This document shows, piece after piece, positions 521 to 29,677 of a stretch of 50,018 nt of DNA. Within the stretch, counting starts at the first letter, position 1, and each line of letters starts with the position of its first letter. Below the pieces are notes generated by a model. It saw only the letters and a program-made list of their open reading frames with translations. It did not search any database and was not told the origin of the DNA. Origin of the DNA: a virus; IMG/VR virus record IMGVR_UViG_3300030419_007586, positions 7,480 to 57,497 of that record. One strand, written 5' to 3'. The position numbers were made by a program, and so were the translations under genes.

Positions 521-1153
521 TTATCTGTTCGACTCCGTATACACTTTGTAAATAGATAAATCTTGATATTCAATCTCCAAATCTTCATTATAATCTGTAA
601 TGCCAAGCATCAAAACAGCACCTTTTGCTGCGATTTCTGGGAGCATATAATAGTTCCATCCAAGCATATCGAACTTTTCTACTAGATGATCAACAGGTCG
701 TCGGCCAAAATACACGGCTCGCTTAAGCCATTTATAAGCTTCCTCATCATCAGTCAGTATCATACCCCCTTTGCCACATTTTAAATATTTATGAGGACCA
801 CTAAAAGACAGGCATTGAAACTGTCCTGGTATGTACATATTTTTCCGAAAAGTCAAAGCACTATCCCATACCGGGAAAGGTTCTAATTTATATTGACCTT
901 TTAGTTTCTTTCCCACCATAGCAGGATGATTTTGATCAAATTTGACTTTATTACCTGCCTGTATAATGGCACAAGGTACGGACATAAAAGTGCGAGCGGG
1001 AATAGTAATCTCCTCATCTTCTATTTTAAGATACTTCATACATAAAAACAATGCATTAGTGGCGTTATCAACAGCTATAGCATATGGTGCGCCGCAATAT
1101 TCAGCCACGTTTTCTTCAAATATATTTATAATTTCATATGGATTGTGTTTCAT
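521..1153 (-). CDS. Short DegT/DnrJ/EryC1-like aminotransferase
   Basis: This 210-aa protein resembles the N-terminal large domain of PLP sugar aminotransferases. APYAIAVDNATNAL matches the cofactor-phosphate region. SFSGPHKYLKCGKGGMI fits the segment with the Schiff-base lysine followed by a Gly-rich turn. Family members are normally about 370 aa, so the C-terminal small domain is missing. A full-length paralogue lies at 6120-7244. The ATG overlaps the previous stop as ATGA. It could be a minimal aminotransferase or dehydratase-like enzyme, or a decayed copy. The reading frame is intact and the operon spacing is normal, so it is probably expressed. Confidence 0.72.
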   Translation of the reverse strand: MKHNPYEIINIFEENVAEYCGAPYAIAVDNATNALFLCMKYLKIEDEEITIPARTFMSVPCAIIQAGNKVKFDQNHPAMVGKKLKGQYKLEPFPVWDSALTFRKNMYIPGQFQCLSFSGPHKYLKCGKGGMILTDDEEAYKWLKRAVYFGRRPVDHLVEKFDMLGWNYYMLPEIAAKGAVLMLGITDYNEDLEIEYQDLSIYKVYTESNR

Positions 1154-1803
1154 GAGTTTATCTTCTTGTAGATTAATTCTGCAACCATAAAATCAAATTC
1201 AGTATCGATGTCGACAGACTCTATTTCATCAAGTACATAAAAATAAGGCTTTTTGGTAACCACATTAGCATATTTTACCATATCTTTTTTTGATATTAAA
1301 CACACTCCATAAGTAATCTTATATATATCAGGTAAATCTTGACTGTTTGGGGACTTGTCAATGTCATAATTTAATGGCTTCCCATCAAGCCACATATGAT
1401 GTTTAACAGGAGCAACAGTAACAAGATTCTCGACTTTTTCATCTTGATAGCGCTTAATGCATTCTTGATAGGTTTCTGACGACACCAAAGGACAAGTAAC
1501 CGGAGAATACATTAAATGATCTCCGTCAATACTTTCACCTAGATTTCTAAAAAATTCAGAATTATCAGCTTCAGAACTGGCGAAATAGCTTTCACGCCCA
1601 TGGGTGTCAACTCCTAATTTAGCTGCTGTTTTTAGCATCTCGTCACAATCAGAACTTACTACAATTTTATCAATAGAGGGTATTTGTTTGAGTTGTTCTA
1701 TTTTTATTTTTAATAAATTTGCACCAGCAAAAGGCTTTGTATTCTTATTCTTAACGCGCACTGAACCTTTTCTAACCGGAATAATAGCGGTAATCTTTTT
1801 CAC
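1150..1803 (-). CDS. NeuA-like acylneuraminate/nonulosonate cytidylyltransferase
   Basis: The sequence starts KKITAIIPVRKGSVRVKNKN, a variant of the IPARxGSKxxxxKN motif of CMP-sialic acid, pseudaminate and legionaminate synthetases. Later segments IDKIVVSSDCDEML and ESVDIDTEFDFMVAE are also typical of the family. The product would activate a nonulosonic or KDO-like sugar as the CMP derivative. I chose the GTG at 1803 because it overlaps the upstream stop (TAGTG) and has GGGAGAG five bases upstream. A TTG at 1830 would give nine extra residues. The neighbouring DegT gene and GT42/DUF115-like gene fit a sialic-acid-like branch, but no NeuB synthase is visible here. Confidence 0.85.
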   Translation of the reverse strand: MKKITAIIPVRKGSVRVKNKNTKPFAGANLLKIKIEQLKQIPSIDKIVVSSDCDEMLKTAAKLGVDTHGRESYFASSEADNSEFFRNLGESIDGDHLMYSPVTCPLVSSETYQECIKRYQDEKVENLVTVAPVKHHMWLDGKPLNYDIDKSPNSQDLPDIYKITYGVCLISKKDMVKYANVVTKKPYFYVLDEIESVDIDTEFDFMVAELIYKKINS

Positions 1804-2192
1804 TACAACTCTCCCAATATTTCTTGCCAATTATTTTCAAATCTTATAGCTTTATCATCAATGTAAAATTGTGCGCGCGGCTTTTCGTGAGTTATGTCAT
1901 CGACATATTGCATAACATCATGTCTTTCTAGCCACTCTTGAACCAATTCTTTACCTGTTTTGCCGTCAACCAAAGGCCTATCAGGGCGCACCTTTGCTGA
2001 AAAAATGATAATATTGTATCGTTTTGATAGAAATCTTATTGCATCTAAAGAGCCTTCGATTGGCTCTCCGTAACAAGTGCCATCGTGCCATCCTTTATCA
2101 AAGGTATGCACCACTCCATCAAAATCAATTGCAATATTGTGCAATTCTTGTTCGAAACCAGGTGGAACGTTCTTGTTAAAAATCTTACTCAT
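1803..2192 (-). CDS. Small HAD-superfamily phosphatase
   Basis: This 129-aa protein has the HAD nucleophile motif as IAIDFDGVVHTFD. A serine/threonine-type motif II region follows as IIIFSAKVRP, and a late acidic motif as FYIDDKAIRF. No large cap domain fits, so it is a capless HAD hydrolase of the kind common in phages. The ATG overlaps the stop of the upstream SIS gene (ATGA) with a strong GGGGGAGG site. Next to a GmhA-like isomerase it could dephosphorylate a heptose or nonulosonate phosphate. The substrate is not shown by the sequence. Confidence 0.7.
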   Translation of the reverse strand: MSKIFNKNVPPGFEQELHNIAIDFDGVVHTFDKGWHDGTCYGEPIEGSLDAIRFLSKRYNIIIFSAKVRPDRPLVDGKTGKELVQEWLERHDVMQYVDDITHEKPRAQFYIDDKAIRFENNWQEILGEL

Positions 2193-2800
2193 TTAACCTC
2201 CCCCGAATCTACTTCAGATACAATTCCTAACTTTTCAAATTTTCTGTCCCTAGCTTTTTTGAAAACCGAAGGGCACTCAAAACCTGCCGAATGAGTTAAT
2301 TGGTAAGTCAAAGCCAGTGATAATATTTCTGATGTGTGATATAAAGTAACATCTTGTGAAATAACTATAATTTCTTCACTCAAGTCTGTCTTTGGCTGCG
2401 CAGTGATTAGAGCGCCTGAAATGCCTTGATCAATAGCATATTCTAATGCATTCACTGTTGCTCTAGAGCTGGTTCCACTTGTTGAGCAAGAAAAGCCCAT
2501 TACCAAGCACTGTGAAGGGTCGATTCCTCTTAATCTATACTTTAGCCACGTTGTAAACCAAGATTCTGCATCCTTATCTCCAATGATAGAGGTCGATGTA
2601 ATGCCTGATCCTGGTGAAATTGCATTTTTATCTGTTAATCGAGAAATGTCAATAGCTGCGTGGTCAGCAATTGCCAAATTGCCTCCGTTTCCAAAAAGAA
2701 AGATATTTGTTGCTTTTCCAAATTCACTCTCTAATTTTTGCCATGGCTGTGAATGGACTATTGTTTCAAACTTTCTATCAAAATTTTCTATATTTAGCAT
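2189..2800 (-). CDS. SIS-domain sugar isomerase, GmhA-like
   Basis: This 203-aa protein has a single SIS domain. FLFGNGGNLAIADHAAID corresponds to the first phosphosugar-binding turn of GmhA (sedoheptulose-7-phosphate isomerase). VMGFSCSTSGTSSRATVNAL is the second SIS Ser/Thr-rich loop. Length matches GmhA (about 195 aa). The acidic residue in the GmhA FAEELxG helix is not obviously kept here (AAIDISRLT), so catalysis should be confirmed. Other ADP-heptose genes are 7-10 kb away in the same operon, which supports a heptose role. It starts with ATG after a GGAAG site. Confidence 0.65.
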   Translation of the reverse strand: MLNIENFDRKFETIVHSQPWQKLESEFGKATNIFLFGNGGNLAIADHAAIDISRLTDKNAISPGSGITSTSIIGDKDAESWFTTWLKYRLRGIDPSQCLVMGFSCSTSGTSSRATVNALEYAIDQGISGALITAQPKTDLSEEIIVISQDVTLYHTSEILSLALTYQLTHSAGFECPSVFKKARDRKFEKLGIVSEVDSGEVK

Positions 2801-2818
2801 ATTTCTTCCTCTATATTA

Positions 2819-3538
2819 TTATTTAAATTTTACAATTTCAGGGAATATATCCAAAGCAACAGGATTTATCGAAAACAGTTTTACATCAGGATAGTTTTTG
2901 CTAATCCAATCCTTTACTATTTTCCAATATCTCAAAATATAATAATCAGCTTGTTGTTGCTTGCCGATCATTATTTTAGCAAAAGTGCCATTTGAATAAT
3001 CACAATCATGGCCAACTAAAAATATATTTTTAACCCCGCAAAATAAAATAAATTGCAACACTTCAAAGCTTATAGAAGCAACGGCGACCAAATTTTCTAG
3101 AGATATATCTTTTCGAAAAAGACAGCTAGAAGGATTTCCACCACTATCGCAAATATAATATTTAGAATTTTTTAAATTTAAAGGCAATTGTCCATTTCTA
3201 GGCACTTCGCCCCAATTAGGCACGGATATCTTTCTATCATCCTTCCAGTTACAATATCTAACGAATTTTTGTTTTTTAGGACTATAATCATCATATTCCT
3301 GAAACCTATCGTAAAATTTTGATGGCACTTGGGGCATCGCGTCTCCCATAAACCAATAATCTAAATCTATTCCTTCTAGAAATATTTGGTCATTTGTGCC
3401 AAACCTTAAAAACTCATCTGGAATTGTAGCAAAATCAAACTGCAAAATGGATGGACCTGATCCGAAAAACACAGCAGATTGACCGCTGTGCTTATTCATA
3501 TATGGCCCAAAAGGATTTTCGAAAACATCTTCAACCAT
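2819..3538 (-). CDS. DUF115/GT42-like glycosyltransferase candidate
   Basis: The N-terminal segment SAVFFGSGPSILQFDFATIP followed by RFGTNDQIF and DYWFMGDAMP resembles the nucleotide-binding start shared by GT42 sialyltransferases and DUF115 proteins (GNGPSL then a cysteine or threonine plus N at the donor site). Late IFLVGHDCDYS is also compatible. Length is 239 aa from the ATG at 3538, which overlaps the previous stop (TGATG). The in-frame TTG one codon upstream is less likely. With a CMP-sugar synthetase nearby it may transfer a nonulosonate. The family assignment is tentative and made from motif memory. Confidence 0.5.
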   Translation of the reverse strand: MVEDVFENPFGPYMNKHSGQSAVFFGSGPSILQFDFATIPDEFLRFGTNDQIFLEGIDLDYWFMGDAMPQVPSKFYDRFQEYDDYSPKKQKFVRYCNWKDDRKISVPNWGEVPRNGQLPLNLKNSKYYICDSGGNPSSCLFRKDISLENLVAVASISFEVLQFILFCGVKNIFLVGHDCDYSNGTFAKIMIGKQQQADYYILRYWKIVKDWISKNYPDVKLFSINPVALDIFPEIVKFK

Positions 3539-4143
3539 CAAGCAGATTTACCTATATACACCGGAATTCCGCCTAACTTTGAAGCTCCTAGTAGTTTTTG
3601 ATTTAGAAGCTCTTCGCCGTTATTAAATTTTTTAAACCAACTTTTAAGAGTATCTTCAAAGCCAGGATCACTTGGATCGCCCCCGTAATCTATTACAAAA
3701 CAAGACTTTACTGATAGATTATTTAAAATATCTGTGTAGTAATATCTTGGCGTTTCAGACAAGCAATGCGTAGCCACGAGCAAATCCCATTCTTCATTGA
3801 ATATTTTCTCATACTCACTTGATTTGATATATTTTACGCCTGTATTGCCAGCCAATGTCTCTTCTATATACTGAAAGTTCCTTTCGATATCCAGTATAGT
3901 ATATTCAACATTGTTATTTTTATTTAAAATGTTTTTGGCTAGAAAGCCCGTGCCGGCGCCAATTTCCAGTATCTTGCCGGAAAAATCAGAAAAATGAGTT
4001 TCCCATAAATTTAAATATTCAGGATCACCGCCAATATCTGGAAATACATCCGCTGCCGTCGCTGTTCGGACGTGGCCGCGATGTCGCACCCAAGTTGATT
4101 TTAAATTCTCATTATTTATACTGCTAAAATCTATATTTGACAT
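3538..4143 (-). CDS. SAM-dependent methyltransferase, putative sugar O-methyltransferase
   Basis: The 201-aa protein has a class I methyltransferase motif I as KILEIGAGTGFLAKNI, a motif II acidic end as YTILDIER, and a motif IV-like DLLVATHCLSE. Its size and the short C-terminus resemble the putative sugar O-methyltransferases found in capsule and O-antigen loci. It starts with ATG after an AAAAGGAG site and overlaps the downstream gene by one base. The methyl acceptor is unknown. Confidence 0.72.
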   Translation of the reverse strand: MSNIDFSSINNENLKSTWVRHRGHVRTATAADVFPDIGGDPEYLNLWETHFSDFSGKILEIGAGTGFLAKNILNKNNNVEYTILDIERNFQYIEETLAGNTGVKYIKSSEYEKIFNEEWDLLVATHCLSETPRYYYTDILNNLSVKSCFVIDYGGDPSDPGFEDTLKSWFKKFNNGEELLNQKLLGASKLGGIPVYIGKSA

Positions 4144-4156
4144 GTTCAGACTCCTT

Positions 4157-5110
4157 TTAAAACATACGCTTCACATTAACATAAGGATCTCTGAAATCCA
4201 CAACATTAAGGGCTTCAACAATTTCATCAATACCTTCTTCGATATCTATGGTTGTCTCAAATCCCAGATCGTTAATCTTTTTATAACTTACTATATAATT
4301 TCTCTTATCGGCATCTTCGCCAATATCGGCATAATGTATGTATGCGCCTGTTTTATTGGCTATAAATTCACAAATCTCTTCTTTGCTGTAATTCATATTA
4401 CTGCTGCCGACATTAAATACATTATCTTTTATTTCTTTAAAATTTTTAATACCAAAAAGAAAAGATGCTCCCATATCAGAAACGTGGATAAAAGTTCTCA
4501 TAAAGTGTTTTTCATAGACTACCAAATAGCCGTCGCGAAGGCACTTATTTGTGAAATCATTGACTAACAAATCCAATCTCAAACGAGGCGAGACTCCAAA
4601 AGCTGTGGCAAATCTATACGCCACCACATTTCCTCTTTCTAAAAGCATCTTCTCTGCTTCAGTCTTTGTAGAGCCATAAAGACTTAAAGGATTAAGAGGG
4701 GTTTCTTCGGTGCATATTTCGGTAACTTTACCGTAGTTGCTTCCCGTTGAGCCGTATAATATTTGTTGCGACTTGTCTGTGACTTCTATTAGGTTTCTTG
4801 TCCCCTCAACATTTACATTCACTGCTAATTCAGGATTGTTTTTACAAGCTGGAAAACCGACGATCGCTGCTAGGTGAACTATGACATCTTGATCTTTTAC
4901 AGCTTTGGCCAAGTCTTCTTTTACTGTTATATCCCCTTTAATAAAGTGAAAATTTTTATTCCGAAAAAACGGCAAAAGCTGATTGCCGCCCTGCATTAAA
5001 TTATCAAACACTGTCACTTCATAGCCCTCTTTTAATAGCTTGGGCAACAATGATGTACCTACGTAGCCAGCTCCACCAGTAACTAATATTTTTTTTCGCC
5101 AATTTACCAT
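4157..5110 (-). CDS. NAD-dependent sugar-nucleotide epimerase/dehydratase (extended SDR)
   Basis: The 317-aa protein begins KILVTGGAGYVGTSLLPKLL, the GxxGxxG dinucleotide site of extended SDRs. DVIVHLAAIVGFPACKNNP follows, and then the catalytic region with ILYGSTGSNYGK and SLYGSTKTEAEK (Y..xK pair). The length is normal for UDP-sugar or GDP-sugar epimerases and dehydratases. The VGFPAC segment is typical of bacterial surface-polysaccharide epimerases of unassigned specificity. The start is ATG after GGAGAA and overlaps the preceding stop by seven bases. Confidence 0.85.
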   Translation of the reverse strand: MVNWRKKILVTGGAGYVGTSLLPKLLKEGYEVTVFDNLMQGGNQLLPFFRNKNFHFIKGDITVKEDLAKAVKDQDVIVHLAAIVGFPACKNNPELAVNVNVEGTRNLIEVTDKSQQILYGSTGSNYGKVTEICTEETPLNPLSLYGSTKTEAEKMLLERGNVVAYRFATAFGVSPRLRLDLLVNDFTNKCLRDGYLVVYEKHFMRTFIHVSDMGASFLFGIKNFKEIKDNVFNVGSSNMNYSKEEICEFIANKTGAYIHYADIGEDADKRNYIVSYKKINDLGFETTIDIEEGIDEIVEALNVVDFRDPYVNVKRMF

Positions 5111-5394
5111 TTTATTCTCCTGATTAATATATCCTTTAACATTACCCAGTCACACAATTTTGCCCAAAGTGGCTTTGACCAAGCTGCAGGTTTATTTTTT
5201 TCAAAAAACATATGCCCACTCCAAGCAAATGGATAAACAACAAAAGGCGCTAGCACAAGAAACAACCACGCTGATTTACTAACGCATAAAACGATAAACA
5301 TAACAGTTGCCAACTGACCTAAAACGTGGAGGCGGCGATTCCATTTATTTTGATGTAATGTTAAATAATATTGATAATATTCTTTAAAACTCAT
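5104..5394 (-). CDS. DUF962/Mpo1-like integral membrane protein
   Basis: This 96-aa protein has YYLTLHQNKWNRRLHVLGQL, a histidine-rich start matching the DUF962 pattern H(x)4-5NR(x)LHxxG. Two hydrophobic segments (about residues 30-45 and 47-58) follow, then WSGHMFFEKNKPAAWSKP, another family hallmark. Yeast Mpo1 of this family is an iron-dependent dioxygenase acting on 2-hydroxy fatty acids. Bacterial members are uncharacterised. Finding it between two sugar SDR genes is unusual, and a role in lipid A or membrane lipid change is only inference. It overlaps the following SDR gene by seven bases. Confidence 0.78.
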   Translation of the reverse strand: MSFKEYYQYYLTLHQNKWNRRLHVLGQLATVMFIVLCVSKSAWLFLVLAPFVVYPFAWSGHMFFEKNKPAAWSKPLWAKLCDWVMLKDILIRRIKW

Positions 5395-6116
5395 AATGGT
5401 ATTTTTCCTTTTAAATAATCTTTTAGATCAGCCATAGTCTTGTCAATCGAATATATATATTGTCCATCTTGACCCCATAAATGAGCATATTGTGTAACCA
5501 TATTTTCTTTTACCAATGTTGCATTGTCCAGGTCCAATTTTTCTAATTTAAACAACTTTAAAACATCGCAAAATGGCACAGGAGCAGGGCTTATATTCAT
5601 AACGGAGATATCATTTTTTAATACTATTTGAATATCTTCCCATATGTTGTTCAAGTAATAATATTGAAAATGGCTTTTCGGGTTGGGCAAATACTCATAA
5701 TTTTCGTTAATCATATCATATATTGCATTTTTTTTAAGTCCTTCCCCAAAAAGAGCTGGTAGGCGCACTATTGTAAGGTTTTGATATCTACTTTGCAACG
5801 CAGTTTCTAGATACAAGCGATTGCGGCCATACGCATTATCTGCAGGATTTTCATACACTGCAATTGTCGAAATTAACACAAATTTCTTACACTCAACCTT
5901 GCTTAAGTGATGCAATAGCTTGTTTATTTGATAAAGATCATCTGCTGGCTTTTTGTTTGCTTTCCACTTGGTGCCGCGTGCTCCAGCACAAACTATTAAA
6001 TCAAAAGATCTACCTTCTATTTCTCTAATATTTTTAGAATTATAACAAAAATCAAATTCTGTTTGCCTATTGATATTAGAGCCTACAAATCCTGTATGTC
6101 CTATCAGTGCTTTCAA
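5391..6116 (-). CDS. NAD-dependent epimerase/reductase-like SDR
   Basis: The 241-aa protein starts KALIGHTGFVGSNINRQ, an extended-SDR dinucleotide site. The typical ISTIAVYENPADNAYGRNRL segment follows with the Y..xxR/K catalytic area, where the usual lysine appears to be arginine. The C-terminal substrate domain is short. The only sensible start is a TTG at 6116, since the Rossmann glycine motif begins within a few residues of it. The gene follows the DegT aminotransferase by three bases. It may be a dTDP- or GDP-sugar reductase; specificity is not readable. Confidence 0.7.
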   Translation of the reverse strand: MKALIGHTGFVGSNINRQTEFDFCYNSKNIREIEGRSFDLIVCAGARGTKWKANKKPADDLYQINKLLHHLSKVECKKFVLISTIAVYENPADNAYGRNRLYLETALQSRYQNLTIVRLPALFGEGLKKNAIYDMINENYEYLPNPKSHFQYYYLNNIWEDIQIVLKNDISVMNISPAPVPFCDVLKLFKLEKLDLDNATLVKENMVTQYAHLWGQDGQYIYSIDKTMADLKDYLKGKIPL

Positions 6117-6119
6117 TCT

Positions 6120-7244
6120 TTAAAAACTCTTTACTGCTTTGACAATCCTTTCAACATCTTTATCCATTAAATCATTGTGCAGAGGTATCAAAATAACATC
6201 TTCATCAGCCCTTTTGGTATTAGGAAGATCACACAACCCGCCAAAAATATCATATGTATCATTCCTGCGATTGTTAACGTTAACTTGAATACCTTGTTTC
6301 CACATATATTCAGCAAATTCCAGCCTATTTTCTACGTGTACTGGGAATATCTGATAGTTGGGTTTCCAATAATCCTTATATTCAATAAGTTTAATCTTTT
6401 CCAGATCAGCAAATTCCTTTCTATATAGATCTCCTATTTTTCTGCGGCGCTCTAGAGGCACGTCGATATAATCAATGGCGACACAGGCCAATGTAGCAGT
6501 AATATCGTTCATATTTGACTTAAAACCTACCCCATCTGGCGTTGAAGGCAGTGGATCGAGCTTATCTGTCTTTTTAGCTTCTCTGTCGATTCCATACCAC
6601 GTTTGTTTCTTAAGTTTTTTATATATTTCTTCATTAGTGGTGGTTACAACACCTCCATCTCCGCACGTAACAATTTTTACGCACTGAAAAGAAAAAGTAG
6701 CAATATCACCAGTTGAGCCAATTGGATTGCCTTTATATTCACTAGTCATTGCATGAGCACTATCTTCAATTATAGGAAGATTGTGCCTTTTGGCCACAGC
6801 TCGAAGCTCATCCAAATCAACTGGATTACCAGCATAATGCACGCACATAATTGCTTTTGTTTTATCTGTTATCTTCTCCTCGACACTTTTAGGATCAATA
6901 TTTAAAGTTTCATACTGAATGTCAGCAAAAACAGGCTTAGCGCCTACTTCCAATATTGCTGTATTCGTTGCTATAAAAGTAAAAGGAGTGCTTACAACTT
7001 CATCGCCTGGGCCGACGTCCAGAGCCCTTAAGGCAATTTTTAAGGCCGCTGTGCCGCTCATACAAGCTATGGCATATGGGGCTTTAAACCTGTTACAAAT
7101 CTTTTCTCTAAACTCTTTTTCTTTCTTTCCAGTATTAATCCAGGTTGATTTAAGCGTTTTAGCTACTTCTTCTGCGGCATTATCTGGAATACATACGCCC
7201 CAACAACGTATTTCTTCTCCCATTTCAAAATCTTTTTTAGCCAT
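6120..7244 (-). CDS. DegT/DnrJ/EryC1 family PLP-dependent sugar aminotransferase
   Basis: Full-length (374 aa) fold-type I aminotransferase. APYAIACMSGTAALKIAL binds the cofactor phosphate. VVSTPFTFIATNTAIL and PIIEDSAHAMTSEYKG carry the ring-stacking and Asp contacts. FSFQCVKIVTCGDGGVV contains the expected Schiff-base lysine, with DGG in place of the more usual EGG. It would aminate a 3- or 4-keto nucleotide sugar such as those made by the neighbouring SDR proteins. The ATG overlaps the upstream stop (TAATG) and has an AAGGAG site. Confidence 0.88.
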   Translation of the reverse strand: MAKKDFEMGEEIRCWGVCIPDNAAEEVAKTLKSTWINTGKKEKEFREKICNRFKAPYAIACMSGTAALKIALRALDVGPGDEVVSTPFTFIATNTAILEVGAKPVFADIQYETLNIDPKSVEEKITDKTKAIMCVHYAGNPVDLDELRAVAKRHNLPIIEDSAHAMTSEYKGNPIGSTGDIATFSFQCVKIVTCGDGGVVTTTNEEIYKKLKKQTWYGIDREAKKTDKLDPLPSTPDGVGFKSNMNDITATLACVAIDYIDVPLERRRKIGDLYRKEFADLEKIKLIEYKDYWKPNYQIFPVHVENRLEFAEYMWKQGIQVNVNNRRNDTYDIFGGLCDLPNTKRADEDVILIPLHNDLMDKDVERIVKAVKSF

Positions 7245-8164
7245 TATAGCATCTCCTTGTAATAGTCTACCGTTTGTTTCACTCCTTCTTCGTGATCATA
7301 AAATCGATAACCCTCAAAAACTTGCACAAACCTTCTATTTCCTAAAATCTTTATTGCCGCCCCATCTTGATATTTGGTGTTAAAAACCAGGTCACCATCA
7401 TATCCAACTGATTTAGCAATACAGCCAGCCGTTTCGGCAATTGAAAATCCCTTTCCTTGTGCGATGTTAACAGGCTCGATAACACTTTCCTTTAGTTTTA
7501 AAGCATTTAACATAATCGCACATACATCATCAATGTAAATCCACTCTCTGATTGGCCTGCCTGTGCCCCAAATTTCAAATTCAGGATCACCATTTTTAAT
7601 AGTGTCTAGCATACGTATAATCATTCCATTTAAAGCATGCACTTTATTTGGGTCTGTGCTGTCGCCGGGGCCATATATGCCGGGGAACATAAGATTGATA
7701 CTTTTTACTCCATATTGCATATTGTAACATCTAGAGACATAGTATAGAACTCTCTTAAAATTTCCAAAAGAAAAAACAGAATGATGTACTTCGCCTTTAA
7801 GCCAATTTTGCTCTTCTTGAATAGTGTTCCCATCTGCATAACAACAATTAGACAAAGGATTAACAACAGTTGCATCTGGGTAGTATTTTAAAACTGCTTT
7901 ATACAAGTTAACAGCCATCAAAGTATTGTCAGTTATGACCTCGGCAGCTTTTTCTGTAACGTAATGCACGCTTCCAACATTAGCTGCACAATTAAAAATA
8001 GCATCTACTTGTCCTATTTCTTCTAAAATTTTACATAGCCCCTCATAATCTCTTAAATCGCATTCTTTCCTTGATATTCCAAACACCTGATGTCCCCGGT
8101 CGATCAAGAACTGTTTTAAATTTTTTCCTACAAAACCAGTATGTCCTAAAATTAGATACTTCAT
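7244..8164 (-). CDS. GDP-fucose synthase-like SDR (epimerase/reductase)
   Basis: The 306-aa protein starts YLILGHTGFVGKNLKQFL. It then shows KECDLRDYEG, NCAANVGSVHY, NPLSNCCYADG, FPGIYGPGDS and EWIYIDDV, in the order found in GDP-L-fucose synthase and related enzymes. The catalytic YxxxK position reads F-G-N-F-K (SVFSFGNFKR), so the tyrosine is replaced by phenylalanine. The rest of the fold is intact, so either another residue serves as acid or the activity differs. It starts with ATG and overlaps the downstream aminotransferase by one base (TAATG). Confidence 0.78.
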   Translation of the reverse strand: MKYLILGHTGFVGKNLKQFLIDRGHQVFGISRKECDLRDYEGLCKILEEIGQVDAIFNCAANVGSVHYVTEKAAEVITDNTLMAVNLYKAVLKYYPDATVVNPLSNCCYADGNTIQEEQNWLKGEVHHSVFSFGNFKRVLYYVSRCYNMQYGVKSINLMFPGIYGPGDSTDPNKVHALNGMIIRMLDTIKNGDPEFEIWGTGRPIREWIYIDDVCAIMLNALKLKESVIEPVNIAQGKGFSIAETAGCIAKSVGYDGDLVFNTKYQDGAAIKILGNRRFVQVFEGYRFYDHEEGVKQTVDYYKEML

Positions 8165-8166
8165 TA

Positions 8167-8916
8167 TTATAATCCCATTTTTTCATTAATATTATATTGA
8201 TATATTTGATCCCAAATATACTTTATATCGCCCCTTTTAAAGAAACGCTTAGATGGTTGATTTGTTAGTACATTGCCATAACTGTTAATAGTCACAGTGC
8301 CTTTAGTGTATAACTCCAAATATGAATAAAGATGCGGATACTCTGGGTAATTATAAGCAAAATTGATTATTTTTGCCTTATCCTGTTTTGCTTCGCCATT
8401 GTTCTTTAATTCGAAATCCCAAGAAGTCATATCTGGCTTTAAATATTTTAAAAAATATTTTTTTGACCATATGGCCGGATGAAGAGATGTTCTATAGTCC
8501 ACTTCTTGATTAAATAATAAAAGATCACTTGAATATGGCGTTGTCTGGGTCATATCAATACCTCCACCGATCATCGCCTTGTCGACATTGTGATTTATAA
8601 ATTCATTCTCAATGATTCTAATTTTCCCCTCATCAACCCTGTTTAGAAGAATATGATCATCAAGTATCAGGGTGAAGTAATCTTCTGGTATGTTTTTGAA
8701 AAACGGAATTAATCCATTTGTCCACATAGATCCAAAATCTGATTGCTTTCCTAAAGATACCGTACTAACATTTGGCGCCATATTGCCCAACTTTAATACG
8801 TCTTCATATCCTACTATAGTTATATCTAGGTTATCCCAATATTTGTTCAAAAAATGCACATTTATTGGACACAATTTTCTTGTATACTTGTTTGATGTGA
8901 TCAGATATAATTTCAA
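8167..8916 (-). CDS. Probable GT-A type glycosyltransferase
   Basis: The 249-aa protein has ITIVGYEDVLKLG early and PEDYFTLILDDHILLNR in the middle, where the DDH resembles the DxD metal and nucleotide-sugar site of GT-A enzymes. Aromatic-rich segments follow (PEYPHLYSYLELY), common in glycosyltransferases of phage and capsule loci. The start is a TTG at 8916 that overlaps the previous TGA (TTGA), with a GGAG site eight bases upstream. Donor and acceptor are unknown. Lower certainty comes from the lack of a closer family match. Confidence 0.55.
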   Translation of the reverse strand: MKLYLITSNKYTRKLCPINVHFLNKYWDNLDITIVGYEDVLKLGNMAPNVSTVSLGKQSDFGSMWTNGLIPFFKNIPEDYFTLILDDHILLNRVDEGKIRIIENEFINHNVDKAMIGGGIDMTQTTPYSSDLLLFNQEVDYRTSLHPAIWSKKYFLKYLKPDMTSWDFELKNNGEAKQDKAKIINFAYNYPEYPHLYSYLELYTKGTVTINSYGNVLTNQPSKRFFKRGDIKYIWDQIYQYNINEKMGL

Positions 8917-9608
8917 TTACATTCTCCGCATCGTCCAGTTAAATTAAAGCCAGTTTCTTCCCAACCTTTATGGCAATTATGCCAAACATTTCTTGTAAAA
9001 GGATCATAATTGCTGCCAATGTCAATAAAAGTAACATCAGGCATTCTATTAAACCATTCCTGCACTAAAACTCTTGCTGTAGGGCCTAAAGACACGCAAA
9101 CAACATCATTTGGCTCAAATGTCTTTGGAAACGTTTCAAGCACGTGCTTGTAGTATTTCCAACTGTTTTTTCTAGGCACGAGTCCCTTTTTGGCCACTTC
9201 TAATCCAAATTGCTTTAAATTATCAACATTTTGATCATCGCCGCCAACCCATAATATACGGCGATCTTTAACGGCATTTGGGAAATGATCAACAAAGTGC
9301 TTCCAATTTTTATTTGTCAACACAACAGCGCTTGTTAAAAAATCATATTCTCCGACTAGCTTTTTGGCATATGTATTAAATTGAGGATAACAAAGCGAAC
9401 AAGGAATCCCAATATAATAATTTTTCTGTTTATGACACAAAGACTTTTTCAATGATTCACTCAAGTCTTCATTAACATATTGATCCCCGCGAGCCACAAC
9501 GGAGCCAACCTGGGCGATTCCCATCATTTCGCCGTCATTAAATCTGGAAAACCCAAATTGTACGTTGTTTGATAAGTTGTCATAAAACCAATTATGATTA
9601 TCTATCAT
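8913..9608 (-). CDS. GT-D fold glycosyltransferase (DUF1792-like)
   Basis: The sequence FGFSRFNDGEMMGIA near the N-terminus matches the R-x-(G/N)-DGE nucleotide-sugar motif of GT-D glycosyltransferases such as streptococcal DUF1792 enzymes. VCVSLGPTARVLVQEW and FIDIGSNYDPF are the later conserved segments. From the ATG at 9608 it is 231 aa. This start has AAAGGAGA eight bases upstream and directly follows the cupin stop. An upstream in-frame ATG at 9668 would overlap the cupin gene and is rejected. GT-D enzymes transfer hexoses to existing glycans; the acceptor here is unknown. Confidence 0.72.
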   Translation of the reverse strand: MIDNHNWFYDNLSNNVQFGFSRFNDGEMMGIAQVGSVVARGDQYVNEDLSESLKKSLCHKQKNYYIGIPCSLCYPQFNTYAKKLVGEYDFLTSAVVLTNKNWKHFVDHFPNAVKDRRILWVGGDDQNVDNLKQFGLEVAKKGLVPRKNSWKYYKHVLETFPKTFEPNDVVCVSLGPTARVLVQEWFNRMPDVTFIDIGSNYDPFTRNVWHNCHKGWEETGFNLTGRCGECN

Positions 9609-9609
9609 T

Positions 9610-9951
9610 TTAATCTCCTTTAAAGATTCTATAACTATCAGAATCAAAATGTTGTGTTGAAAACTCAAACAGTTCTGTATCTTCCAAGGCTATCATTTGA
9701 TGCCGCAAACCACGATATACGTGAAACGTTTCGCCTTTTCCTAATATCACCGAAGCTGCTTTCTTCAAATCGTCGTCTTTAGAATACATAACCTTAATCC
9801 TTCCAGACTGAACGTAAAACACTTCGTCTTTTAATTTATGGTAGTGCCAGGAGCACCTTTTATCCTTAACAAAATAAAGCAGCTTACCGCAGTATTCCTC
9901 CTTATTAACGATCCATTTTTCAAAGCCCCAGCCTTTAGAAACAAACTTCAT
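9610..9951 (-). CDS. Cupin-fold protein, sugar-phosphate isomerase type
   Basis: This 113-aa single cupin shows CSWHYHKLKDEVFYVQSGRI (motif 1, with HxH and a downstream Glu) and GETFHVYRGLRHQMIAL (motif 2, with the second-shell His). It resembles the isolated phosphomannose-isomerase-type cupin domains often found in capsule operons. It could isomerise or epimerise a sugar phosphate or sugar nucleotide, or be a metal-binding accessory. Its stop is followed directly by the GT-D gene. Confidence 0.72.
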   Translation of the reverse strand: MKFVSKGWGFEKWIVNKEEYCGKLLYFVKDKRCSWHYHKLKDEVFYVQSGRIKVMYSKDDDLKKAASVILGKGETFHVYRGLRHQMIALEDTELFEFSTQHFDSDSYRIFKGD

Positions 9952-10241
9952 TATATCTCTTCAATCCTTTTAGTTTTGTCACAAATCAATAAATCATAAT
10001 GAGGCTTATCATTCATAATTAATTCGTGATATTTAGCCTTCCAGTCACTTAATTGCGCAGCTGTAACATCTGTCCAATCAATGCCAGAAACGGCTCCTCT
10101 TGCTGTCCAATATACTATTGTATGACCAGAATCATATAATTTGTTTATTTTTTCTATATTTTCCATAATTGGTTCAGCTTCATCGTATATGCCAAATGAA
10201 TCTTTGCATATAGTTCCGTCTATATCAACATAAATTAACAT
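9951..10241 (-). CDS. EcbF/BcbF-like HAD phosphatase
   Basis: This protein (96 aa from the preferred ATG at 10241) has the HAD motif as LIYVDIDGTICKD, then IVYWTARGAVSGIDW and LLICDKTKRIEEI. That order matches the small capsule-biosynthesis phosphatases of the EcbF/BcbF type. The GAGG site sits nine bases before the ATG at 10241 and directly abuts an ATG at 10250, so the downstream ATG is chosen. Adjacent HldE kinase and transferase genes make it a candidate for the heptose 1,7-bisphosphate phosphatase (GmhB) step. That is inference from position. Confidence 0.7.
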   Translation of the reverse strand: MLIYVDIDGTICKDSFGIYDEAEPIMENIEKINKLYDSGHTIVYWTARGAVSGIDWTDVTAAQLSDWKAKYHELIMNDKPHYDLLICDKTKRIEEI

Positions 10242-11019
10242 ACTCGACATCCTCTTTGTTTAAAGCGTATACTCCGCTTTTTGTCACCGTTATTCTAGCA
10301 CATTTATTGGCATATTTAATGGATAGCGATAAATCACGACTTAATATAAATTTATATATTAAAGCAGCAAAAAATGTATCGCCTGCGCCGCAAACATCAT
10401 AAACTTCTACTGGTTCTGATTCGTGCAAAATATTATTATAATAAGCGCCGTTTTCGCCATCGGTCATTATAAGTTCATAATTATCCGGATAATGCTCGAC
10501 CTTTGAAGCTTCAAGGGCATTGATCTTTATAATTGAATTGCTGAAAATGGATAGATCACTTTTCTTGCTATCAACAAAAAGAGGCACATTGTGCCTGTAA
10601 CACTGCAAAGATATGTATTCAGCAATTGATTTATCAATAAAGCCTTTATTATAATCAACTATCGATACAGCATCGTATGAATCAAATTGCACATCTTTCA
10701 CCTTTTCAGCGGAAATTGGCTGCAGCTTGTTAATTTCACCGGTGTCGCAACGTAACAAGTGACTTTTGGTTCTAATATCTATGTATCGCTCTTTTGTTAT
10801 TACTTCCTGGTTGGTTAAAATATCTACTTTTATATTAAATGATTCTAGATTATTCTTTACATTAAATGCCATTCCATCTTTTTGTTCAGTATAAGAAAGT
10901 TTTAATATTGGAACTGGAGCTTCTGGGCTCAATCGATTGCATACACCATAGTGATATATGTCTACGCAACTATCACCTATTGTCAATACTCTCAATGATT
11001 CTTGTTGTTGAATATCCAT
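10225..11019 (-). CDS. hldE: PfkB-type heptose-7-phosphate kinase (HldE kinase domain as a separate gene)
   Basis: The protein shows LTIGDSCVDIYHYGVCNRLSPEAPVP, the HldE/RfaE-I N-terminal signature, and the ribokinase-family C-terminal motif VYDVCGAGDTFFAALIY with the GAGD anion hole and catalytic Asp. At about 264 aa it is somewhat shorter than the roughly 310-aa kinase half of bacterial HldE. It would phosphorylate D-glycero-D-manno-heptose 7-phosphate at C1. The ATG at 11019 overlaps the upstream nucleotidyltransferase gene by 47 bases, an unusually long overlap. A TTG two codons earlier is also possible. Confidence 0.85.
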   Translation of the reverse strand: MDIQQQESLRVLTIGDSCVDIYHYGVCNRLSPEAPVPILKLSYTEQKDGMAFNVKNNLESFNIKVDILTNQEVITKERYIDIRTKSHLLRCDTGEINKLQPISAEKVKDVQFDSYDAVSIVDYNKGFIDKSIAEYISLQCYRHNVPLFVDSKKSDLSIFSNSIIKINALEASKVEHYPDNYELIMTDGENGAYYNNILHESEPVEVYDVCGAGDTFFAALIYKFILSRDLSLSIKYANKCARITVTKSGVYALNKEDVEYVNLC

Positions 11020-11362
11020 TAACAAAACTAAAAATTTTTACATCAGCCAAATCAGCGCCAACAACTGATGATGCGTCATAATCGCCGCCTTTGACTATTA
11101 TATCAGGTTTGATTTGTTTAATTAAATTATAGGGTGTCGATTCATCAAATAATCTAACCTCATCTACATATTGCAGAGAATTCAATAAAAATTTTCTATC
11201 GTCTTGAGTGTTTATGGGACGATTGCAGCCCTTAAGTCTTCTAACGCTAGAATCGCTATTCAAGCCAACTATAACATATCCCAAGCTCTTGCAATACTTT
11301 AAAAGTTCTAGGTGTCCTCTATGAATTATGTCGAAACATCCGTTTGTAAAAATCACACACAT
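10973..11362 (-). CDS. hldE: Heptose-1-phosphate nucleotidyltransferase (HldE transferase domain as a separate gene)
   Basis: The 129-aa protein begins VIFTNGCFDIIHRGHLELL, the HxGH nucleotidyltransferase motif of the HldE C-terminal domain. VIVGLNSDSSVRRLKG and PDIIVKGGDY complete the signature. It would couple heptose 1-phosphate to ATP, giving ADP-heptose. The very C-terminal YSTTRIIESI matches the S-T-T/S helix of HldE. In most bacteria this domain is fused after the kinase; here it is a separate gene placed before it. It overlaps the HldD gene by ten bases upstream. Confidence 0.9.
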   Translation of the reverse strand: MCVIFTNGCFDIIHRGHLELLKYCKSLGYVIVGLNSDSSVRRLKGCNRPINTQDDRKFLLNSLQYVDEVRLFDESTPYNLIKQIKPDIIVKGGDYDASSVVGADLADVKIFSFVNGYSTTRIIESIDNR

Positions 11363-12255
11363 TGCTTCTCCAGATAATTCAAATATCGCAACACTCCATC
11401 TTCAAGAGACAAAAAATCTTCTTTATAATGCGCAATCTGACGAAGCTTTGTATTGTCTGATTGTGTATATTTCTGGTAGCGGCTGACTAATTGTTTCGGC
11501 ATTTCTATTTCTTCTATTCTGAAATCATAAACAGTTTTCATTATTTGCGCAATATCAGCAAAGCTTCTAGGAATCGACGTTCCGCAGTTATATATGCCTG
11601 ATAGGCCTTTGTTTTCTAGAAAATGAAGATTTACTTTCACTACGTCATCAACACTTATGAAATCTCTTATATATTTGTCACTATTCTTAAAGATTTTTAT
11701 TTTATTATCTTTCTTAATTTGCTGAAAGAATTGATACACAACGGAAGCCATTTTACCTTTGTTGTGCTCATAAGGCCCAAAGACATTAAAATATCTTAAT
11801 CCAACAAGTTGAGTCGACCAACAATCACGATAACATTTAACATACTCATCAAAAAGATATTTTGATTTCGCATATATATTTTTAGGCTGGCATAGTTCAG
11901 TTTCTTTAAAGGGGCCATCGCCATAAACAGCCGCAGAAGAAGCATATATTAATCTAATATTCTTCTGCATACATATCTTATACAAAGCAACACTATAGTC
12001 AAAGTTCTCTTTCATCATATAATCTACATCATAACACGTCGTGTCAGAGCAAGCCCCTAAATGAAACACCACTTCGATATCGCTTGAAGAAGGCAACACA
12101 TCCTTAATTAAAGTCATTGGATCAATTATATTTTTATCATTATGGTAATTTTGATGATCACAAAGAATAATGTTGTCATATTTTGACACCAAGCTGTTGC
12201 GCAAATTTGTGCCAATGAATCCAGATGCCCCTGTTATAACTGCAATTTTACCCAT
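11353..12255 (-). CDS. hldD: ADP-L-glycero-D-manno-heptose 6-epimerase
   Basis: The 300-aa SDR has AVITGASGFIGTNL, then VVFHLGACSDTTCYDVDYMM and YFNVFGPYEHNKGKMASVVY. These segments are specific to HldD/RfaD rather than to general epimerases. The catalytic pair is in NIYAKSKYLFDEYV (YxxxK). VRDFI-type RDFISVDDVVKVNLHF follows. It converts ADP-D,D-heptose to ADP-L,D-heptose, the donor for inner-core LPS. Length matches E. coli HldD (310 aa). It overlaps both neighbours and so is co-translated with the HldE-like genes. Confidence 0.92.
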   Translation of the reverse strand: MGKIAVITGASGFIGTNLRNSLVSKYDNIILCDHQNYHNDKNIIDPMTLIKDVLPSSSDIEVVFHLGACSDTTCYDVDYMMKENFDYSVALYKICMQKNIRLIYASSAAVYGDGPFKETELCQPKNIYAKSKYLFDEYVKCYRDCWSTQLVGLRYFNVFGPYEHNKGKMASVVYQFFQQIKKDNKIKIFKNSDKYIRDFISVDDVVKVNLHFLENKGLSGIYNCGTSIPRSFADIAQIMKTVYDFRIEEIEMPKQLVSRYQKYTQSDNTKLRQIAHYKEDFLSLEDGVLRYLNYLEKQCV

Positions 12256-13096
12256 TGGGCCCTTCTATCAAGGATGTGAACAGCTTTAAAGCAGAATCAA
12301 CCCTTTTTCGTATTTCACTTATCAATGCATTCCCAGATAAACGATATATGTCTTCTGATGCAAAACCAAGCATTTTAGGTTTAGTTAAAAGCTTACAATT
12401 TAACATTTTCGCTTCAGCTGATATTCGCGAAAATGTTTCAAGAACTTTGGGAAAAAATACAAGACCCGTATAGTAAGATAAAGCCGTAAGCAATTCACGT
12501 TCGGCGCAATATTTGATCAAGCCATACTGAACACTATTTTTATTGCAAAACTCGACAGCTTCAAAGGTATTTTTAATTGGATTTGTAGATTCTATAATGG
12601 CAAACTTTTCGTTTTTATTTTGACTGTTTAGGGTTGCAATAAAGTCCAGCTTCTGTTCCGACCATAAACTGCATCCTATGTTATATATATTGTCAATATG
12701 TAAGGTTTTTTTCATTATTTGTTTGCATATGTCGCTCAACACAACGACAGCAATTGCATTTTGATAGAATGCTTGATTTATTATTTCATTTGGAGGAGCC
12801 AGGAAATTTCTATATTTGCTTGGATCTCTAGATTTAACGTATTTGTGATCGTGCTCATAAATAATGTAATCTTCCTTCTGGAGAAGTGCCTTAAATTCTT
12901 CAGAAAGTGAAATAAAGTTTCCTATAATAAAAAAATTATTTTGTCCTAGATCGTCTAAATTAACTTCAACGCAGCGTTTGGTTTGCACTTGATAGCCACG
13001 TGCGATTAAATGATTAATCAAAACGTCATCATTGCATTCCCCGCCGCCCAAAAAATCTTTTCTAAAGATATCCGCAACAAAAACAACACGTCTCAT
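12248..13096 (-). CDS. GT-B type glycosyltransferase-like protein
   Basis: The 282-aa protein starts VVFVADIFRKDFLGGGECND, like the acceptor-domain start of GT4 enzymes with a glycine-rich loop. It keeps a C-terminal region GLVFFPKVLETFSRISAEAKML that matches the E(x)6-7E donor-site motif in reduced form. It is shorter than the 350-420 aa of its GT4 neighbours. It sits directly before hldD and could use ADP-heptose, but donor specificity is not readable. Confidence 0.62.
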   Translation of the reverse strand: MRRVVFVADIFRKDFLGGGECNDDVLINHLIARGYQVQTKRCVEVNLDDLGQNNFFIIGNFISLSEEFKALLQKEDYIIYEHDHKYVKSRDPSKYRNFLAPPNEIINQAFYQNAIAVVVLSDICKQIMKKTLHIDNIYNIGCSLWSEQKLDFIATLNSQNKNEKFAIIESTNPIKNTFEAVEFCNKNSVQYGLIKYCAERELLTALSYYTGLVFFPKVLETFSRISAEAKMLNCKLLTKPKMLGFASEDIYRLSGNALISEIRKRVDSALKLFTSLIEGPNG

Positions 13097-13097
13097 T

Positions 13098-14360
13098 TTA
13101 TATCATTTCAATATCAGAAAGATTTTTTTGCCACTCTAGATCTTCTTCTGTAGGTAAATATTCCTTAACACAATTAACAAAAGCCTCATACTGTTGATCT
13201 TCTGAAAAATTCTCCAAAATCCAAGTTTGAAGTTTCTTTGCTTGAGACTGAAAGCGGCCATAATCTTTATACATTTCACGCAATTTCATCTTATATGAAC
13301 CTTGCTGTGGATAAGCCCACATAGAGTCTGCCTGTATTACGCCATTCCATACTGCCTGTTTTTGCACTGGCTGTAAATCATAATCAACTCTAGCGAAATG
13401 TGGCCGTAGCTTCTCTTTTCCTTTTTTGTCTTGAACAGGTTTATAAAGAAAATCCAAATGGCCACTCCAATCAGTTGCTAATACAGGCAAGCCAGAATAT
13501 GCTGCTTCAAAAAGAGGCAATCCAAAACCCTCGCCATGTGTGAGAGAAATAAGACAATGAACGTCTTTATGATTGTAAAGAGAGTGCATTTCTTGGTCTG
13601 TTAAATCTCCGTGAAGAAGATGAACCTTGCATTTCCTGTTTTCATATTTCTTGAGAATATTTGAAAGCCCCTTCCGCGCTTCATCTCTATCAATGAGAGA
13701 ACCGCCTTTTGCATATGTCTTTACTATCAAGCTTACGTCTGGGTTGTCGACAAATTCTTCAACAAACCAAGCGACAGTATTGAAAATATTTTTACGAGGA
13801 CCCCATTGAGCTACGGTGAGGAAATTAAATTTTGTTGATAAATCTAGATTCATATCAACCAGTTCATAATCTTTGACGGGATAATGAACGACGTCTACGT
13901 CTTTTGTACATTTAAGGTAGCCTTTTTGACCAGTGTTTTGATTGACCCCTTCATAGACAGTGTTCAGGAATGATTGTTTAGAGTGTTCTGAAATGGTAAT
14001 TACCTTGTCCATTTCATTAACCTTTTGAATCCAAACAGGAGAAACTTTTGTTGTTTCTATGCCGGCAGTTACTCCAATATTAACAGGCGCTAAACGTTCC
14101 CATTCATTAGGAATAGTCACTTGAATGCTCATATCATATTGACCTTTTTGTTGGCCGTGCATAGCCGTCTTCTTTACGATCCGATCAATCCAACGCCTTT
14201 CTTCACTATCTTCCCATACCCAATTTGACTGGCCCCAATTGAGAGGTATGAAATATAAATCTATTAAGTCTTCTAGAGTGCGCAAAGATCTCAAGACAAA
14301 ACGACAATGCTCACCGTATCCTGTTCTAGTAAGGCCCGGGCCTCTAACTAATATTTTCAT
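13098..14360 (-). CDS. GT4 family glycosyltransferase
   Basis: The 420-aa protein opens with VRGPGLTRTGYGEHCRFVLR, the glycine loop of GT-B retaining enzymes. FLTVAQWGPRKNIFNTVAWF is the start of the C-terminal Rossmann domain. LTHGEGFGLPLFEAAYSGLP is the canonical GT4 EGFGLPxxEA donor motif, followed by VLATDWSGHLDFL. It is a soluble or peripheral enzyme that adds a sugar from a nucleotide donor. Its gene overlaps the upstream GT4 gene (ATGA). Confidence 0.88.
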   Translation of the reverse strand: MKILVRGPGLTRTGYGEHCRFVLRSLRTLEDLIDLYFIPLNWGQSNWVWEDSEERRWIDRIVKKTAMHGQQKGQYDMSIQVTIPNEWERLAPVNIGVTAGIETTKVSPVWIQKVNEMDKVITISEHSKQSFLNTVYEGVNQNTGQKGYLKCTKDVDVVHYPVKDYELVDMNLDLSTKFNFLTVAQWGPRKNIFNTVAWFVEEFVDNPDVSLIVKTYAKGGSLIDRDEARKGLSNILKKYENRKCKVHLLHGDLTDQEMHSLYNHKDVHCLISLTHGEGFGLPLFEAAYSGLPVLATDWSGHLDFLYKPVQDKKGKEKLRPHFARVDYDLQPVQKQAVWNGVIQADSMWAYPQQGSYKMKLREMYKDYGRFQSQAKKLQTWILENFSEDQQYEAFVNCVKEYLPTEEDLEWQKNLSDIEMI

Positions 14361-15628
14361 AGCGCAATCTCCTCAATTACCCAACGTTGAGTTTCCTTTC
14401 TTGTTTCCCAAGATCCTTCTTCTTCGTGAATATTAGTAAGCAAATCAACCCAAGTTTTATTAAAACTTTCAAAATTATAATTATCCATTACGTGCTTTCG
14501 ACCATCTAAACCGAGCTTTGTTCGCTCATCCTTGTCCATGTGATATAAAGTTTCCATAGCTTTAACTACATCATCTCCATTTAAGCGATCTTCATAAATC
14601 CAAGGAATCTGTTGAGAACCGATAATTGCCTTTGATGAAGGATCCAAGCCAACACCAAAAACAGTTTCGCCATCAGTAATTTGCTCCTGCAAGCCTCCTG
14701 TCTTGTTAACAATAATCGGCGTCCCGCAAGAAAGCGATTCTAACGTAGCAAGTCCAAATCCTTCTGCATCGGATATGTTAATTGTGCAATCAGAAATGTT
14801 ATACATCACAGCCAGTCGTTTTAAATCAACTTTAGTTTGGCTAAACAAAACTTCACCATTAGTTAACCCAAGTTCTTCAATTATTGCTTGTAAATCTTGG
14901 CCATTCGGATCCTTAACTTCAGTATGCATAATCAAAGAAGCTTTATCTTTTCCTACTTTTTTGAGAAATTCATTAAACCAAAAAATCAATGAGCCGCTTT
15001 GCTTTCTTCTTGCATTGCGATTGTTCCAGAAAAAGATAAAGCGATCTGGATCATAATAATCACCAAAGGCGCTTTTCTTGAATTCTTCTAAAATTTCAGT
15101 ATTTTCAATTGGTTTAAAAATATCGCTATCCACAGCGTGCGGAACATATTGTGATTTTACATCCGGTGAAACAGTCTTTACAATATCATCAGTAACTTTA
15201 GAAATAGTAGCAATAAAATCATTAGAATCATAGAATTTTTTATTAAAGGTTGGATACGGATAATTATCCCATACGTGATAATACACCATTGGCAAAAGAG
15301 GCCTAATTTCGTTCTCCATTTCCCACAACCAACCCCAAAAACGTGGGTCTGTCATAAACCAAAGAATATCTGGCTTTTCCTGACGGATAATTGAACGAAG
15401 CATTTCGGGATTTCCATATCCATCAACTGGGAACATAATCCAGTCATCTCCCCACTCTTCAGTCTTAATTGGGTTATAATTTGGATGCTTAATTGCACCT
15501 CCAAAAGAGCGAATAGTAAATTTGCCACTTTTTAAAAGGGCCTCGCACATATATTTTGTCTGTGTGCCGACACCGCTTGGTGATAAAGGCATATCACTAA
15601 TAGTTAAAACTTTAATTTTTTTGTCCAT
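14357..15628 (-). CDS. GT4 family glycosyltransferase
   Basis: The 423-aa GT-B protein has DMPLSPSGVGTQTKYMCEAL at the start, FIFFWNNRNARRKQSGSLIF at the domain boundary, and SDAEGFGLATLESLSCGTP as donor-site motif. IVNKTGGLQEQI follows. It is related to the adjacent 420-aa GT4 but not a recent duplicate. It is the first gene of the glycan cluster in transcription order, ten bases after a PD-(D/E)XK nuclease gene. Confidence 0.88.
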   Translation of the reverse strand: MDKKIKVLTISDMPLSPSGVGTQTKYMCEALLKSGKFTIRSFGGAIKHPNYNPIKTEEWGDDWIMFPVDGYGNPEMLRSIIRQEKPDILWFMTDPRFWGWLWEMENEIRPLLPMVYYHVWDNYPYPTFNKKFYDSNDFIATISKVTDDIVKTVSPDVKSQYVPHAVDSDIFKPIENTEILEEFKKSAFGDYYDPDRFIFFWNNRNARRKQSGSLIFWFNEFLKKVGKDKASLIMHTEVKDPNGQDLQAIIEELGLTNGEVLFSQTKVDLKRLAVMYNISDCTINISDAEGFGLATLESLSCGTPIIVNKTGGLQEQITDGETVFGVGLDPSSKAIIGSQQIPWIYEDRLNGDDVVKAMETLYHMDKDERTKLGLDGRKHVMDNYNFESFNKTWVDLLTNIHEEEGSWETRKETQRWVIEEIAL

Positions 15629-20341: not shown

Positions 20342-20375
20342 AAAAACTCTCAATATTCAGCACAGTTAAGTACCG

Positions 20376-22378: not shown

Positions 22379-22385
22379 ATAATCT

Positions 22386-22457
22386 AGCCTTCGATCAGAT
22401 TCGAACTGATGACCTACGCATTACTAGTGCGTAGCTCTGCCACTGAGCTACGAAGGC
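22386..22457 (-). tRNA. tRNA-Thr (anticodon AGT)
   Basis: A full cloverleaf can be drawn. The acceptor GCCTTCG pairs with CGAAGGC, the D-arm is GCTC/GAGC, the anticodon stem is ACGCA/TGCGT with loop CTAGTAA, and the T-arm is ATCAG/CTGAT with loop TTCGAAT. The central loop triplet is AGT, which reads threonine ACU. A34 is unusual for a bacterial Thr tRNA (GGT, TGT and CGT are usual). The discriminator is T and CCA is not encoded. It lies between tRNA-Asn and tmRNA. Confidence 0.88.
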
Positions 22458-22462
22458 CTAGG

Positions 22463-29635: not shown

Positions 29636-29677
29636 AAAAACCTCCAAATAGGCTTTTACTCTAACATATTAAAATGA

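Follow-up and report, generated by a model that had tools for sequence, protein, structure and literature searches.

A small cupin as the candidate sedoheptulose-7-phosphate isomerase of a widespread phage ADP-heptose module

The ADP-heptose genes known from phages seem incomplete, and databases give the name of the missing isomerase to a phosphatase. Which protein would carry out the first step is the question raised by a gene cluster in the window analyzed here, a stretch of 50,018 bp comprising bases 7480–57497 of the 57,497-bp IMG/VR virus record IMGVR_UViG_3300030419_007586; coordinates refer to this window unless marked as record positions. On the minus strand, sugar-nucleotide enzymes and glycosyltransferases form a cluster that reaches from near record position 2,650 as far as window position 15,628, and within it five contiguous genes (9613–12255) encode, in the order of transcription, HldD, HldC, HldA, a HAD protein of 99 amino acids (aa) and a 113-aa cupin. 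We consider it probable that these genes form a complete ADP-L,D-heptose pathway in which the cupin is a nonorthologous counterpart of GmhA, with glycosyltransferases then using the heptose. The cupin would perform step 1, the isomerization of sedoheptulose-7-phosphate, in place of GmhA, and the phage glycosyltransferases would then transfer heptose to a glycan. The preliminary description of this DNA, made from the letters alone, had proposed a near-complete ADP-heptose pathway on a phage; that proposal is well supported, and the pathway is probably complete, the cupin being its most likely isomerase.

HldD (ADP-glyceromanno-heptose 6-epimerase, 300 aa; 11353–12255, minus strand) scored 297.7 bits against TIGR02197, above the curated NCBIfam cut-off of 274.6, matched the Escherichia coli HldD structure in the PDB (1.1e-59) and carried both the YxxxK motif (as YAKSK) and the lysine of NKGKMASV. 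HldC, a separate nucleotidyltransferase (10973–11362, minus strand), matched TIGR02199 (2.7e-45; 153.7 bits, below the cut-off of 181.5), phrog_7878 and PDB entry 5x9q (6.5e-30), with the HxGH motif present as HRGH. HldA, the heptose-7-phosphate kinase (266 aa; 10225–11025, minus strand), belongs to the phage family phrog_8133 (3e-76); its match to TIGR02198 (1.2e-37) scored far below the cut-off of 345, RLSPEAPVP is retained, and the GAGD motif was invariant across 14 phages. The phrog_8133 profile aligned with E. coli HldE over 248 columns (hhalign, E = 9.6e-30), and the phage kinase is shorter than the E. coli kinase domain, with the N-terminal half partly missing. The short HAD phosphatase (99 aa; 9951–10250, minus strand), a member of phrog_1238, matched GmhB weakly (2.3e-4, 20.7 bits), and its DxD, T, K and D motifs were invariant in 15 phage members; we infer a GmhB-type role and substrate for it. 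The PHROG name of this family, "phosphoheptose isomerase", is wrong, since the alignment displays HAD motifs. Misleading names stand in the public records of several cyanophage loci (L010–L012, L025–L030): "phosphoheptose isomerase" for the HAD of phrog_1238, and "cysteine dioxygenase" or "nucleotidyltransferase" for the cupin.

The kinase and the nucleotidyltransferase occupy separate open reading frames (ORFs), with the nucleotidyltransferase first, the reverse of the order in fused HldE; what had been taken as HldE split into two genes is therefore an ordinary pair of HldA and HldC genes. Separate HldA and HldC are standard, being known from bacteria as well as from cyanophages with annotated genomes, and a split HldE was set aside as a novelty. 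The other enzymes named in the preliminary description held up: the "unmistakable" HldD by its score above the cut-off, the kinase and nucleotidyltransferase as HldA and HldC by profile matches below theirs, and the HAD phosphatases, of which two are present (1803–2192 and 9951–10250).

A related but different activated sugar would be the product if the specificity of these enzymes had drifted. The shortened kinase and the scores of HldA and HldC under their curated cut-offs would fit this, as would the transketolase-like and dehydrogenase genes that adjoin the module in cyanophages S-SM2 and P-TIM68. We regard such drift as quite unlikely, given that HldD exceeds its cut-off, the kinase retains RLSPEAPVP and GAGD, HldC retains HxGH, and classic GmhB stands in the archaeal operons described below.

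The five-gene module itself is already known and widespread in phages, and heptose-related genes or rfaE were previously reported in marine phages (PMC7378029; PMC7029224). Its families (nucleotidyltransferase, kinase, HAD, cupin and epimerase) are those of T4-GC304 to T4-GC308 in P-SSM2 (PSSM2_309–313), S-SSM7 and S-SM2, and they were also found in P-TIM68, S-CAM1, S-CAM3 and Sf-FS3; S-T4 and Sf-CH8 carried the same set, with HldD undetected within the stretch examined. The window proteins were about 33–67% identical to those of the cyanophage module. The gene hldD heads the operon in the window, whereas it faces the other module genes in P-SSM2, S-CAM1, S-CAM3 and S-SSM7. A profile scan confirmed at least 566 viral stretches, and the best 80 viral contigs were used for linkage counts. 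HldC lay no more than 200 nucleotides from HldA in 75 of these 80, and the cupin was found within 3.5 kb of HldA in 72; in six of the eight contigs without it, HldA was near a contig end. When marine or cyanophage records with the HldA kinase were compared by hand, the cupin was present in 31 out of 31. Used as a bait for viral sequences, HldD gave no matches, since its peptides vary too much to be caught by exact patterns.

Compared with the bacterial ADP-L,D-heptose pathway (GmhA, HldE or HldA/HldC, GmhB and HldD), the phage HldA, HldC and HldD are homologous and the phage HAD would take the GmhB role, whereas the module has a cupin instead of GmhA and a phosphatase much shorter than GmhB. 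A SIS/GmhA protein was detectable in none of the best 80 viral contigs, SIS-specific profiles included, and no SIS_2 match was found in the complete genomes of nine cyanophages that carry the module, although PF13580 fails to detect even the SIS protein of the window and this model alone cannot prove that a divergent SIS is absent from phages. The assignment of the isomerase step to the cupin seems to be the new element here.

The cupin gene (9613–9951, minus strand) encodes the pattern H36-x-H38-x2-K41-x-E43...H84 (HxHxxKxE...H), which was invariant among 40 phage cupins and fits the cupin metal-site pattern. The predicted structure (model confidence, pLDDT, 97.5) was compared with the PDB by Foldseek. 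The best five matches were all chains of the Thermofilum D-lyxose/D-mannose isomerase, followed by KdgF and then by the Bacillus subtilis D-lyxose isomerase. The modeled barrel and the HxH...E...H site suggest that the protein belongs to the cupin sugar isomerases, with a presumed isomerase activity. D-lyxose/D-mannose isomerase (PDB 7nzo/7nzp, 2y0o) has the cupin fold and the YC-x-K, HxH and K-x-E pattern in common with the phage protein and is an aldose-ketose isomerase, as proposed for the cupin; the two share only about 20% identity, and the phage cupin is 113 aa long with a substrate presumed to be phosphorylated. By analogy, the isomerization of mannose and fructose may be viewed as the six-carbon counterpart of the GmhA reaction. 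By sequence, weak matches to Lyx_isomer were obtained for half of the cupin members and to MannoseP_isomer for a quarter. The mannose-6-phosphate isomerase of cyanophage S-SCSM1 (PMC9602691) is also a type II, cupin-type sugar-phosphate isomerase from a marine phage; it was not among the cupin matches, and its authors read it as an enzyme of central carbon metabolism. Within the literature covered, which left out most subscription journals, no paper was found that joins cupins with gmhA and heptose or with a sedoheptulose/heptose isomerase.

A further link between the cupin and the first step came from cellular genomes. The phage cupin profile was searched against bacterial and archaeal genomes, and DISPLACEMENT of GmhA was seen in archaea, where Woesearchaeota and Nanoarchaeota operons (L202, L196, L236) read cupin-HldD-HldA-GmhB-HldC and have no GmhA. 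In related genomes (L240) the order is GmhA-HldD-HldA-GmhB-HldC, with GmhA in the place of the cupin. The phage and archaeal cupins form one family (hhalign, E = 1.9e-39) with the same partners, whereas the archaeal operons are cellular and differ from the phage module in their full-length kinase, classic GmhB and gene order. Mutual exclusion was assessed in 194 genomes of the Nanoarchaeota phylum, chosen irrespective of the cupin, with a threshold of at least 300 bits for HldA. Among the 31 genomes that passed, 19 had GmhA only, 10 had the cupin only, none had both and two had neither (Fisher p = 1.5e-6). HldA was fused at its C terminus to the cupin in four loci (L229–L232) and to GmhA in two (L233–L234), and a GmhB-cupin-HldC fusion was present in L238; GmhB-HldC fusions occurred as well among these Nanoarchaeota (L229–L234, L238). 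In the HldA tree, at least six changes of isomerase type were counted, at least three of them forced by well-supported branches, and the sister kinases L243 and L246 (100/100 support) carry different isomerases. The cupin thus replaces GmhA in archaea, by the same operon slot, by mutual exclusion and by parallel fusions. GT9-like glycosyltransferase genes were seen beside several of the Nanoarchaeota fusion genes (L229–L234, L238).

These archaeal data also bear on whether the cupin might instead have a tailoring role, such as that of an epimerase or of an enzyme for some later modification of the sugar, with phosphoheptose supplied by a host GmhA. Sugar epimerases and CapF-type domains do occur among cupins, and in the cyanophages SynMITS9220M01 and Bellamy the cupin has a GHMP kinase on one side and an NTP transferase on the other; it thus stands in another sugar pathway there, again flanked by a kinase and a nucleotidyltransferase. 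A tailoring role nevertheless fails to predict the strict exclusion of GmhA, the shared operon slot and the parallel HldA fusions. In addition, the hosts of the cultured carriers are cyanobacteria, whose lipopolysaccharide (LPS) is reportedly without heptose (PMC4515613), and a complete pathway is therefore expected in these phages. We consider a tailoring role unlikely. In SynMITS9220M01 (L175, 7946–16009), the GHMP kinase-cupin-NTP transferase set was accompanied by a separate pair of a GHMP kinase and a SIS isomerase, which makes this phage helpful for comparing both kinds of isomerase.

Several observations weigh against the cupin as isomerase of a complete phage pathway. KdgF, CapF and oxalate decarboxylases rank close behind the D-lyxose/D-mannose isomerase in Foldseek, and by sequence generic cupins outscore D-lyxose isomerase. 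HldA and HldC score under the NCBI curated cut-offs. The archaeal genomes are mostly metagenome-assembled, and exclusivity partly reflects shared ancestry, the four HldA-cupin fusions forming one clade. Among 19 archaeal genomes in which the cupin was clearly matched, 7 lacked a copy closer than 5 kb to HldA, and the family may therefore have other roles. With these points taken into account, we lean toward the view that a 113-residue metal-binding cupin family, widespread among marine phages and recurring in DPANN archaea, constitutes a second and unrelated type of sedoheptulose-7-phosphate isomerase that has repeatedly displaced GmhA and that enables phages to make ADP-heptose from pentose-phosphate intermediates, a sugar foreign to hosts such as cyanobacteria. 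If so, hundreds of phages would have a full pathway, with step 1 supplied by the cupin. The protein would then be a nonhomologous form of an enzyme under study as a target for antibacterials, and would point to some archaea as makers of ADP-heptose. Why phages take heptose to hosts with an LPS described as heptose-free would then become testable.

A different candidate for the first step had been named in the preliminary description, the SIS-fold protein at 2189–2800 (minus strand), described as a GmhA-like isomerase. No Pfam, SIS_2 or PDB sequence match was found for it. Its AlphaFold model did match GmhA structures (TM-score about 0.65–0.69), and its gene belongs, like the heptose genes, to one strand-wide cluster, with both sets kept together in L013 and L014, as would be expected if this protein were the GmhA of the pathway and the cupin did something else. 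The noncatalytic DiaA was matched about equally well, however. The metal and catalytic residues of E. coli GmhA are H61, E65, Q172 and H180. Only H61 is conserved in the SIS protein; an Asp is aligned with E65, and the helix register would put Glu and Tyr at the positions of Q172 and H180. The genomic partners of the SIS protein are a HAD phosphatase and a CMP-sugar transferase, independent of the heptose genes: the trio in L015–L017 and the SIS-HAD pair in L019–L021 were accompanied by neither HldA nor HldC nor a clear HldD, and, as noted above, SIS was not detected in 80 other HldA contigs or in nine complete module-bearing cyanophages. The protein thus has a GmhA-type fold in its model, and the GmhA assignment is not borne out by active-site residues, family match or heptose linkage; profile searches recovered HldD, HldC and HldA and did not recover 2189–2800 as GmhA. 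The SIS protein as the pathway GmhA, lowered by the synteny and active-site checks, is rather improbable, and the protein probably serves as isomerase in a different pathway, that of a CMP-sugar, leaving the cupin as the preferred isomerase for heptose.

The viral SIS-HAD-CMP transferase trio (1150–2800, minus strand) was conserved in L013–L021. Its second member is a 129-aa HAD phosphatase (1803–2192, minus strand) with a DFDG motif, assigned by synteny in the same loci, and its third a 226-aa CMP-sugar cytidylyltransferase (1150–1830, minus strand; PF02348, 3e-14), with a weak PseF match and the same synteny.

The destination of the heptose was considered from the surroundings of the module. 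The glycosyltransferases noted in the preliminary description, and other nucleotide-sugar enzymes, were recovered by family matches, all on the minus strand: upstream of the module, two glycosyltransferases of GT4 type (13098–15628; PF00534, phrog_2170), a 251-aa GT-D fold glycosyltransferase adjoining the cupin (8913–9668; PF08759, 1.2e-9), and, at 4157–8164, two short-chain dehydrogenases/reductases (SDRs), a DegT aminotransferase, a GDP-fucose-synthase-like SDR and an Mpo1-like protein. A GT9-like protein lying upstream, outside the window (record positions 3468–4286), with partial similarity to GT9, is a candidate heptosyltransferase. Glycan genes adjoin the module in the window and in some other phages; in P-SSM2, S-CAM1, S-CAM3, S-SSM7 and Sf-FS3 it adjoins tail-fiber or neck genes. 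These five raise the possibility that the heptose decorates virion tail fibers rather than remodeling the host surface (LPS or O-chain) for superinfection exclusion. We give this some credence, without favoring it: the window module has a large glycan cluster and no recognizable structural gene alongside, and modification of the host O-chain was proposed by the authors of the pelagimyophage study (PMC7029224). DNA modification was considered too, and the annotated genes include no enzyme that would carry it out. The suggested innate-immunity angle found no support for a marine phage.

Upstream of HldD, a protein without a Pfam match (12248–13096, minus strand) was kept beside it in L007 and L013. 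The Mpo1-like membrane protein (PF06127; 5104–5394, minus strand) lies inside the sugar cluster and was kept in L013 and L014.

The record carries genes for PhoH-like, exonuclease and ClpX-like proteins, a transfer-messenger RNA (tmRNA) and transfer RNA (tRNA), with a weak match to a late sigma factor; no clear capsid or tail gene was recognized on it. Phage genes share the contig with the heptose genes in this viral record, and nothing, the flanking genes included, suggests a host chromosomal island. The tmRNA gene (22069–22534, minus strand; tag ANDNVEFDYALAA), uncommon on phages, adjoins genes for tRNA-Thr and tRNA-Asn. The PhoH-like gene (17783–20353, minus strand) contains an apparent intein within its P-loop (GKAGSGK / AQPLDSK...VTHN / TLLAIATG), an insert whose first residue is Ala and which has HNH-like similarity inside. 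A ClpX-like AAA protein with the ClpX zinc finger (35428–36717) is among the few long plus-strand genes and is followed by a protein-kinase-like ORF (36714–37736, minus strand). An adenylosuccinate synthetase (28628–29647, minus strand) matched phrog_1211, which has a PurZ-type label, and its N-terminal YGDCGKGK keeps the Asp; it may be PurA or PurZ. A predicted secreted protein (29768–31846, minus strand) carries repeated MopE copper-binding motifs (PF11617).

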